The notes under the pieces: generated by a model
Seen by the model: only the letters and a program-made list of their open reading frames with translations
The model's database searches: none
Told to the model about the DNA's origin: nothing
Source: Deltaproteobacteria bacterium
GTDB lineage: Bacteria; Desulfobacterota_D; UBA1144; Nemesobacterales; UBA2774
NCBI GenBank assembly: GCA_029262275.1
Contig: JAJCZS010000027.1
Coordinates: forward strand, 1 to 46,875
Direction of reading: 5' to 3'
Length of the DNA: 46,875 bases
Position numbers and translations under genes: made by a program
Part shown: positions 28,817 through 30,860 of the stretch, piece by piece
Layout: each line of letters starts with the position of its first letter
Position numbering within the stretch: position 1 is the first letter of the stretch

Positions 28817-29926
28817 TTAGTAGAGTACTACACTCCTTATGCTTTTGCCTTCATGCATTAAATGAAACGCATCATTTATTTCCTCAAGAGGCATATTAAA
28901 ACTCACAAGCTCATCTATTTTAATATCCCCTGCCATATAGTTATCAACAATACCTGAGAGCTCAGTGCGTCCTTTGACTCCTCCAAATGCTGACCCTCTC
29001 CATACGCGCCCTGTAACCAGCTGAAATGGTCTTGTCGAGATTTCTTCTCCTGCTCCAGCAACACCGATAATAGTCGACTCGCCCCACCCTTTGTGGCAAC
29101 ACTCAAGAGCGGGTCTCATAATATCCACCTTCCCCACACACTCAAAGGAATAATCAACTCCGCCGTCAGTCATATCTACAACCACATTTTGAATAGGGTC
29201 TGTAACTTTTGCCGGGTTTATAAAATCAGTTGCCCCAAGCTGCCCCGCAATCTCAAACTTGTCTTCATTTACATCTATTGCAATTATGCGCTCAGCCTTT
29301 GCCATCACGGCCCCTTGGATCACGGACAGTCCTATGCACCCAAGCCCGAAAACTGCGACTGTTGAGCCAGGCTGTACTTTTGCCGTGTTTAAAACTGCTC
29401 CGATCCCTGTGGTTATACCGCATCCAAGAAGACACACCTTATCAAGCGGCGCCTCTTTGTTTACCACAGCCAAAGAGATCTCGGGAATAACAGAGTATTC
29501 TGAAAATGTAGAAGTGCCCATATAATGAAATATTTCTTTCCCATCTTTTGAGAACCTAGTAGTGCCATCAGGCATAAGCCCCTTTCCTTGCGTGTCCCTT
29601 ACAGCTTGGCATAAATTGGTTTTACCGGACAAGCAGTATTTACATTTTCTACACTCAGGAATGTATAGAGGAATCACGTGGTCTCCAGGTTTAACACTTG
29701 TAACCCCAGAACCCACTTCCTCAACAACCGCGCCACCTTCATGGCCCAATACGGCCGGGAATACTCCTTCGGGATCTATACCAGAGAGGGTGTATGCATC
29801 TGTGTGACAAACACCAGTTGCCACCATACGACATAGCACCTCTCCTTCCTTTGGCCCCTCAAGCTCGATCTCCTCGATCACTAGATCACTCTTTGCTTCC
29901 CATGCTACAGCAGCTCTCGTTTTCAT
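28817..29926 (-). CDS. frmA: S-(hydroxymethyl)glutathione dehydrogenase / class III alcohol dehydrogenase
   Basis: A 369-residue zinc dehydrogenase that oxidises the formaldehyde-glutathione adduct with NAD. Catalytic zinc ligands are Cys40, His62-Glu63 and Cys169; structural zinc cysteines are 92, 95, 98 and 106. The NAD fold carries Gly-Leu-Gly-Cys-Ile-Gly (194-199) with Asp219-type acidic end (Ile-Ala-Ile-Asp). Length and motifs match class III enzymes closely. A GGAGGAG precedes the ATG (complement of 29924-29926). It is the first gene of the frmA-fghA operon. Chief role: formaldehyde detoxification, with nitrosoglutathione reduction also known for the family. Confidence 0.96.
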
Positions 29927-30062: not shown

Positions 30063-30092
30063 TTGACTTGAGACCCTAAAATCTCATATAAT
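30063..30092 (+). promoter_or_regulatory. Promoter of the compact RNA/peptide unit
   Basis: TTGACT (30063-30068), 18 bases, TATAAT (30087-30092). The spacer contains GAGACCC and ATCTC, half of which form a small inverted repeat (GAGA, TCTC), a possible regulator site. Transcription would begin near 30099. Confidence 0.65.
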
Positions 30093-30136
30093 ATAATTAG
30101 TTAGTGGTTATGAAAGTTACATAGGAGGTTTTAATT

Positions 30137-30181
30137 ATGACAACAAGTGACACTCCACCATACAAGGAACTTTCATCATAA
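30137..30181 (+). CDS. 14-residue peptide ORF with perfect ribosome site
   Basis: AGGAGG (30123-30128) lies eight bases before ATG 30137. The frame reads Met-Thr-Thr-Ser-Asp-Thr-Pro-Pro-Tyr-Lys-Glu-Leu-Ser-Ser and ends in two consecutive stop codons (TAA TAA, 30179-30184). The strong site, double stop and own promoter argue for real translation. It may be a leader peptide, a dual-function RNA peptide, or a chance frame. There is no membrane segment. Confidence 0.45.
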   Translation: MTTSDTPPYKELSS

Positions 30182-30283
30182 TAAAAGTGCTAGGTATAGC
30201 GCTTAAAACAACTAGTGAGTCGGAATTGGAACTCACAATATAAATAGCCAACGGGCTATTAAATCAAAAAATGATAACAAAAA

Positions 30284-30318
30284 AGGGAGCCCTTCTTAAA
30301 AAAAGAGGCTCCCTTTCT
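30284..30318 (+). terminator. Rho-independent terminator of the compact unit
   Basis: AGGGAGCC (30284-30291) pairs with GGCTCCCT (30307-30314) over an A-rich 15-base loop, followed by TTTCTCAT. Confidence 0.75.
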
Positions 30319-30356: not shown

Positions 30357-30860
30357 CTATTCTGACTTTCTCACTTTAAAGACATACATTGCAACAAGCC
30401 CTACAGCAACAGCAGTTAGTGAACCAATTATGGATTCAGCAAACCTGAGCCCTGCGTTGGCTATTGGGCCGATGTCAGTAACAATCAGAGATATGATCAC
30501 CACAACTGATAGGGTGATGTTTGTAGTTCTAATATAGTCAGGAATCCGCAAGATATGACAAACAAGAACTCCGATTGCTATTGCTATTGCAAAACCGATT
30601 ACGGAGAAGCTAAAGAAATAAAGATATACACCTGCAATCAAACAGCCCATGAAAGAGGCCTTTATCCTCATTTTTGCAGACTTTACAGTTAAGGCTTCCT
30701 TGTCGGACATTACAAAAACGCCTGAGATAACTGACCACAGTCCCCCTACCTCAGCAGTGCCCAGATGGAACATTACTGTAAAGTAATAACCCAGGATATA
30801 GGCTATTACCGCAACCACAAAGTTTTCTATTACCGACCTTGTTATATGTGATGTTAACAA
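30357..30860 (-). CDS. FUSC-family / aromatic acid exporter-like membrane protein
   Basis: A 167-residue inner-membrane protein with about five hydrophobic helices and the FUSC-type pattern Leu-Trp-Ser-Val-Ile-Ser-Gly, a basic loop Met-Arg-Ile-Lys-Ala, and Arg-Phe-Ala-Glu-Ser-Ile-Ile-Gly in the last third. Full exporters of this group add a cytosolic domain; this one is a membrane half only, like the short ArAE_1 family. The start codon appears to be TTG (complement of 30858-30860), with GAGGTG upstream at a suitable distance. It is expected to export aromatic or other small acids, but the substrate is unknown. It lies after 30941-31405 on the same strand. Confidence 0.72.
   Translation of the reverse strand: MLTSHITRSVIENFVVAVIAYILGYYFTVMFHLGTAEVGGLWSVISGVFVMSDKEALTVKSAKMRIKASFMGCLIAGVYLYFFSFSVIGFAIAIAIGVLVCHILRIPDYIRTTNITLSVVVIISLIVTDIGPIANAGLRFAESIIGSLTAVAVGLVAMYVFKVRKSE

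Follow-up and report, generated by a model that had tools for sequence, protein, structure and literature searches.

A small gene with a predicted translated micro-ORF and a structured RNA tail in the Nemesobacterales and related prophages

Architecture of the unit at 30063-30318

The window, which is the whole 46,875-nucleotide stretch analysed here, is contig C27 (JAJCZS010000027.1) of a 2.48-Mb assembly from a member of the Nemesobacterales. A zinc alcohol dehydrogenase gene occupies positions 28817-29926 of the minus strand, divergent from the unit under study, and is followed by an esterase gene; together, these two genes beside the unit resemble the glutathione-dependent formaldehyde pair. 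On the other side, a FUSC-type gene on the minus strand (30357-30860) is convergent with the unit. No open reading frame (ORF) of at least 60 amino acids was found between 29926 and 30357, in agreement with the original prediction that nothing else is coded there.

The unit lies on the plus strand and starts with a sigma-70-type promoter, TTGACT-N18-TATAAT (30063-30092), in which the -35 box TTGACT (30063-30068) and the -10 box TATAAT (30087-30092), separated by an 18-base spacer, match 11 of the 12 consensus bases. An alternative overlapping register, TTGAGA/TATAAT, is located 5 bases downstream and scores equally. The spacer (30069-30086) contains CCCTAAA at the place of a motif that is CCCCAAA-like in most copies (consensus CCCCAAA), and the promoter pattern with the spacer motif occurs once in the whole genome of the window, hinting at a possible dedicated regulator of the promoter. 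Downstream follow the Shine-Dalgarno sequence AGGAGG (30123-30128), whose GAGG is invariant in all copies, and a 14-codon ORF encoding MTTSDTPPYKELSS (30137-30181), with the ATG at 30137 and a TAA stop at 30179-30181; a second TAA (30182-30184) is not conserved among the copies. Within the frame, the core codons S-D-T-P-P-Y (30146-30163) carry the nucleotide motif GTGAC-N3-CCACC-N2-C.

The remainder of the unit is taken up by hairpins and a terminator, all on the plus strand. Hairpin 1 (8 bp, 30185-30204) is lineage-specific and occurs only in the window genome, G002 and G003. Hairpin 2 (6-7 bp, 30215-30236) and hairpin 3 (7 bp with an A-rich loop, 30243-30260) are conserved with compensatory changes, as is hairpin 4 (4 bp with an A-rich loop, 30263-30275) in most copies. 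The intrinsic terminator, with the stem AAAGGGAGCC/GGCTCCCTTT (30282-30316), is bidirectional; it also ends the convergent FUSC-type gene, and its T run is longer on the minus strand. In copies without a convergent gene, the terminator has its own T run CTCCCTTTTTT (L198, G007 and G010). The near-consensus promoter, the AGGAGG site, the 14-codon frame closed by two stops and the terminator were all claimed in the original prediction and are present; its three hairpins exist as well, but the first is found in only 3 of the 13 copies, and hairpin 4 had been overlooked.

The whole transcript folds at -59.3 kcal/mol, compared with -37.1 +/- 4.1 for dinucleotide shuffles (z -5.5), and none of 200 shuffles folded as well; the 106-nt hairpin region alone gave a z of -5.4. 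Promoter and terminator scans of the single sequence were not above shuffle expectation, so that conservation, rather than the match to consensus, carries the case.

Distribution and genomic neighbourhoods

Homology searches yielded 13 complete copies, which come from 11 genomes of the order and from one viral contig. Every copy has a Shine-Dalgarno site, an ORF of 9-16 codons, hairpins in tandem and a terminator with a GGGAGC stem. Within the genus, blastn located the unit in G001 (three places), G002, G003, G004 and G006, and in G005 only its end, at a contig edge. Across five species of the genus the unit is 79% identical, compared with 71% for the FUSC-type gene, 76% for the next gene and 54% and 44% for the flanks, and the -10 box, Shine-Dalgarno site, ATG and ORF core are all kept in the genus alignment. 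A covariance model built from the genus copies reached G007, G009, G021 and G029 and weakly matched a UBA2774 locus; a second one, derived from twelve copies, found these four genomes again and, as G010, the same UBA2774 copy. A DNA pattern of promoter, Shine-Dalgarno site and ORF core had one true match in 2.9 million viral contigs (L147/L198). As this contig was found by the 5'-end pattern alone and its downstream half, outside the pattern, then matched the hairpin model (76 bits for the whole element), it provides an independent confirmation. In the other genomes and on the viral contig, too, the copies are preceded by similar -35 and -10 boxes.

No true match outside the class was obtained in a 291-genome sample, and blastn did not find the unit in phage and plasmid collections. 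Matches rejected as false were one inside a phosphomannomutase-like gene of G049, those in G030, G036, G040, G025, G034, G022 and G018, and the viral L168, L169 and L218-L221. The distribution within the order is patchy, and the searches did not find the unit in several genomes of the same family that are nearly complete, G011 and G014 (>90% complete) among them. Judging from these searches, the unit appears to be restricted to this bacterial order and related prophages. In scans of the window and four relatives, every Rfam family stayed below its gathering score, and the sub-threshold matches at relaxed thresholds were to generic hairpins or terminators only.

The unit lies upstream of the alcohol dehydrogenase gene in the genus and in G010, except for the G001 copies and the G004 locus, which is without the dehydrogenase. 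The next gene is convergent in the window, G002-G004, G006, G009 and G029, and unrelated in G010 (a TetR gene) and G021 (a sulfatase-modifying enzyme gene); in G029 the unit follows a gene for a large secreted-type protein. Insertion among phage structural genes was seen in G009, G007 and the viral contig, where the unit is surrounded by tail genes and small zinc-ribbon membrane proteins are encoded close by, and not for the window copy, G010, G021 or G029. The phage assignment draws on several findings: G009 has a Phage_tube_2 domain, G009 and the viral contig each match a minor-tail PHROG and have tail proteins that are 78% identical, and tape-measure-like homologs occur on the viral contig as well as in G007. 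The presence of the unit in prophage tail modules as well as at unrelated chromosomal sites suggests travel in the manner of a phage 'moron'.

On the viral contig (L147 1762-13077, L198), three consecutive tape-measure-like proteins of 970, 803 and 1323 aa share near-identical blocks and alternate with paralogous small zinc-ribbon membrane proteins in a cassette-like array, parts of which recur in G009 (L141) and G007 (L142). G001 holds its three copies at atypical sites (C3:1600-1821, C114:3495-3717 and C70:1-125), and in one of them the ORF is cut short by a stop after nine codons. An intergenic repeat with approximately the sequence CCAACTTAAACCGAGCTTGACAAAAGGGGTGCAGTAC is dispersed over G000:C11:2167-2241, G000:C8:51725-51799, G000:C9:9243-9307 and G001:C3:1270-1345 and some 20 other places each in G001 and G006; it often comes right after GGGAGC/GCTCCC terminators, those of surface-protein genes that end in an IPTLSEWG-type sorting signal. 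The tail common to the G001 copies is this separate repeat, which follows many terminators, and the idea of the unit as a mobile repeat was rejected.

Constraint on the micro-ORF and the hairpin tail

The ORF is 9-16 codons long and contains the core [SCG]-D-x-P-P-[YDC] in 13/13 copies. The encoded peptides are MTTSDTPPYKELSS, MKTSDTPPYKALFIS, MGTCDTPPYKEVEIS, MGTCDTPPYKVAFIA, MGTSDSPPYNAVHL, MTMCDSPPCKPVHI, MTTCDSPPC, MTSECDSPPDRLVENS, MSESDTPPDKLVENL, MGSESDTPPDYMVINL, MDSDSPPDQ, MGNNGDEPPYN and MDNHGDVPPD. Three, four or five codons precede the Asp, with the ATG in frame in all 13 copies, and the ORF ends 1-7 codons past the second Pro; that these insertions and deletions kept the frame argues for translation. 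All four third bases occur in the second Pro codon, as expected under selection at the peptide level. Conservation does not extend to the residues past the core, which can also be missing; as the ORF ends 1-2 codons past the Pro-Pro in G001a, G010, G021 and G029, only the beginning of the peptide can be important.

The same segment is conserved at the nucleotide level. GTGA and CC-CC are found in 13/13 copies, the Asp codon is GAC in 12/13, the codon after Pro-Pro ends in C in 13/13 and the codon before Asp always ends in T, all of these being counts over related sequences and not independent events. The usage of GAC and TAC in the genome of the window is 0.37 and 0.36, respectively, and the GAC bias together with the fixed T and C third bases around the core indicates that the segment is also constrained as nucleic acid. 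A GUG/CAC mini-stem within the core is invariant. Sequestration of the Shine-Dalgarno site by the core was considered and rejected, since by eye the pairing is not kept in G002, G029 and others.

In the 13-sequence alignment, compensatory double changes were observed in 16 of the 17 pairs of hairpins 2-4, and 93% of the alignment cells pair. None of 500 shuffles reached the observed covariation score; slid controls gave 1-4 compensatory pairs, and shifting the partner by 1-3 columns reduced pairing to 26-49%. Since fitting this alignment to the model favours the structure, each sequence was also folded alone. In these single folds, which largely agree with the alignment, tandem hairpins corresponding to hairpins 2 and 3 precede the terminator (z -3.3 to -11.2); hairpin 2 is less regular in G010, and hairpin 4 appears in most copies. 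The loops and linkers of the tail are A-rich. A CsrA-sponge role was dismissed, as only members of the genus have a GGA in the hairpin 2 loop.

The covariance search among relatives thus revealed conserved hairpins with compensatory changes as well as a conserved peptide core, and a joint drift of stems and ORF without covariation did not occur. The original prediction of a translated small RNA is strongly supported by this comparison, through frame-preserving change, the peptide core and the compensatory hairpin changes. The comparison establishes, at the level of sequence, a stand-alone small gene with a structured RNA tail, predicted to be translated over at least its first 8-10 codons.

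A plain small-protein mRNA, in which the 9-16-residue peptide is the sole product and the hairpins form a stabilising 3' UTR, could account for the near-perfect Shine-Dalgarno site, the kept frame and the conserved peptide core, and a hairpin sequence that varies while the structure stays is what a stabiliser would show. This explanation is unlikely, though still to be taken seriously, because the residues after the core are unconserved and sometimes absent, the synonymous sites of the core are constrained, and the hairpins retain their number, their order and their A-rich linkers from family to family, beyond a stabiliser's needs. It is more doubtful whether the unit is a regulatory RNA with translation as its switch, in which the early D-x-P-P stretch slows or stalls the ribosome and so controls hairpin folding, stability or binding, with a functionless peptide. 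Normal elongation through consecutive prolines needs EF-P, and several features would suit such a switch: the Pro-Pro falls within codons 6-9, the codons around it are constrained, the C-terminal tail is short and variable, and the hairpins begin right after the stop. However, there is no downstream gene for regulation in cis, the residue after Pro-Pro varies (Y, D or C), and stalling is itself a prediction.

Predicted mode of action and comparison with known systems

The small ORF, structured mRNA, prophage location and several G001 copies would also fit a type I toxin gene, that is, the mRNA of a small toxic peptide under antisense control. Such a gene is very improbable: the peptides (e.g. 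MTTSDTPPYKELSS and MDSDSPPDQ) are short, hydrophilic and Pro/Asp-rich rather than hydrophobic membrane toxins, and no convincing antisense promoter was found, the best site on the minus strand matching 9/12. A leader peptide or attenuator of a neighbouring gene, which the original prediction had offered as an option in view of the order of promoter, short ORF, hairpins and terminator, has a negligible chance, as the next gene is mostly convergent or unrelated and the copies have no co-directional downstream gene in common, which excludes a cis-acting leader. Equally hard to credit is a non-functional repeat or mobile element remnant conserved through recent spread; the three G001 copies at new sites with the dispersed repeat adjoining them and the variable genomic position would suit it, but nearly all genomes have a single copy, the dispersed repeat is separate, and recent spread cannot account for compensatory changes and a frame kept across genera and families.

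We consider it probable, with modest confidence, that the unit is an autonomous translated and structured small RNA of the dual-function type that acts in trans and possibly moves as a phage 'moron'. Promoter and terminator are conserved among copies with unrelated neighbours, which points to a predicted independent transcription unit. The case for a translated ORF comes from comparison, namely the Shine-Dalgarno site, the ATG that stays in frame through length changes and the conserved core, and a role of the RNA beyond coding is suggested by hairpin covariation and synonymous constraint; a target search gave none. In that search, complement matches to the core motif as antisense targets were no commoner than for a reversed control, and those inspected lay inside open frames, e.g. 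in an ABC-transporter signature motif. No Hfq domain was detected in the 11 unit-carrying genomes, with positive controls in E. coli, B. subtilis and others, so classical Hfq-dependent pairing is unlikely. Post-transcriptional regulation in the order, given no detectable Hfq, may use other RNA chaperones or none.

Under the dual-function reading, a strong constitutive-type promoter would drive one RNA of about 190-225 nt from an autonomous small gene, and the near-perfect ribosome-binding site at its 5' end would allow efficient translation. Selection acts on the core [SCG]DxPP[YDC] at the peptide level as well as at the nucleotide level, and the early Asp-x-Pro-Pro stretch with its constrained codons may be the effector or ribosome-sensing part. 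The RNA would in addition work as a structured RNA, i.e. as a translated regulatory RNA in trans, with the three conserved tandem hairpins and their A-rich linkers stabilising it or presenting it to a partner. The unit may travel as a self-contained, 'moron'-like phage accessory that some lineages have domesticated. A more specific and only tentative proposal is an undescribed family of translated structured RNAs, limited to the order and its phages, in which the start of the micro-ORF could form a combined peptide and RNA signal (GUGAC-N3-CCACC-N2-C, xDxPPx) that is read by the ribosome or a partner, is Hfq-free and is mobile between tail modules and chromosomes.

No genes are harder to prove from sequence than very short ORFs, and for this unit the frame, the peptide core, the synonymous constraint, the covarying stems and the autonomous position are independent lines that agree. 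The bacterial group has almost no cultured members, and the covariance model and peptide motif enable annotation of the family. The unit is also a compact test case of a 9-16-codon ORF plus RNA structure in bacteria without detectable Hfq, and its prophage copies suggest that such units spread as phage cargo.

Among the papers searched, none connects Dadabacteria with an RNA of this kind. Spot 42, found in enteric bacteria, is a pairing RNA that depends on Hfq. Like the unit, it is a stand-alone small RNA with a very short ORF, the SpfP peptide of Escherichia coli having 15 residues as cited in PMC11955535. In contrast to Spot 42, the unit has no sequence or Rfam match, no Hfq was found in its genomes, and its ORF starts near the 5' end and has the most conserved part of the unit as its core. 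In VcdRP of Vibrio cholerae, the small ORF and the regulatory RNA part are conserved together (PMC8672173). VcdRP and SgrS/SgrT share with the unit the order of an upstream small ORF and a downstream RNA part that is regulatory, putatively so in the unit; their peptides are longer (29 residues for VcdP) and unrelated to those of the unit, and base-pairing is known there, whereas the target search for the unit gave none. Phage morons resemble the copies of G009, G007 and the viral contig as self-contained transcription units in the tail region. Most morons carry ordinary protein genes, while the unit combines a tiny ORF with RNA structure and sits at non-phage sites too. Surveys of intergenic regions have described standalone sORF motifs with a conserved short ORF, a ribosome-binding site and context-independent transcription, a label that in the survey pipeline denotes cases without structure beyond the terminator (PMC6429828); to these features the unit adds three covarying hairpins and a prophage link. 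Spot 42, VcdRP, SgrS/SgrT and the sORF motifs work similarly but are not relatives of the unit. The claim that the unit belongs to no known class holds against Rfam, but dual-function small RNAs or small-protein mRNAs, its general kind, have been described before; the unit is a new family of that kind, unusual in combining a micro-ORF at the 5' end with synonymous constraint, three covarying hairpins and carriage by phages.
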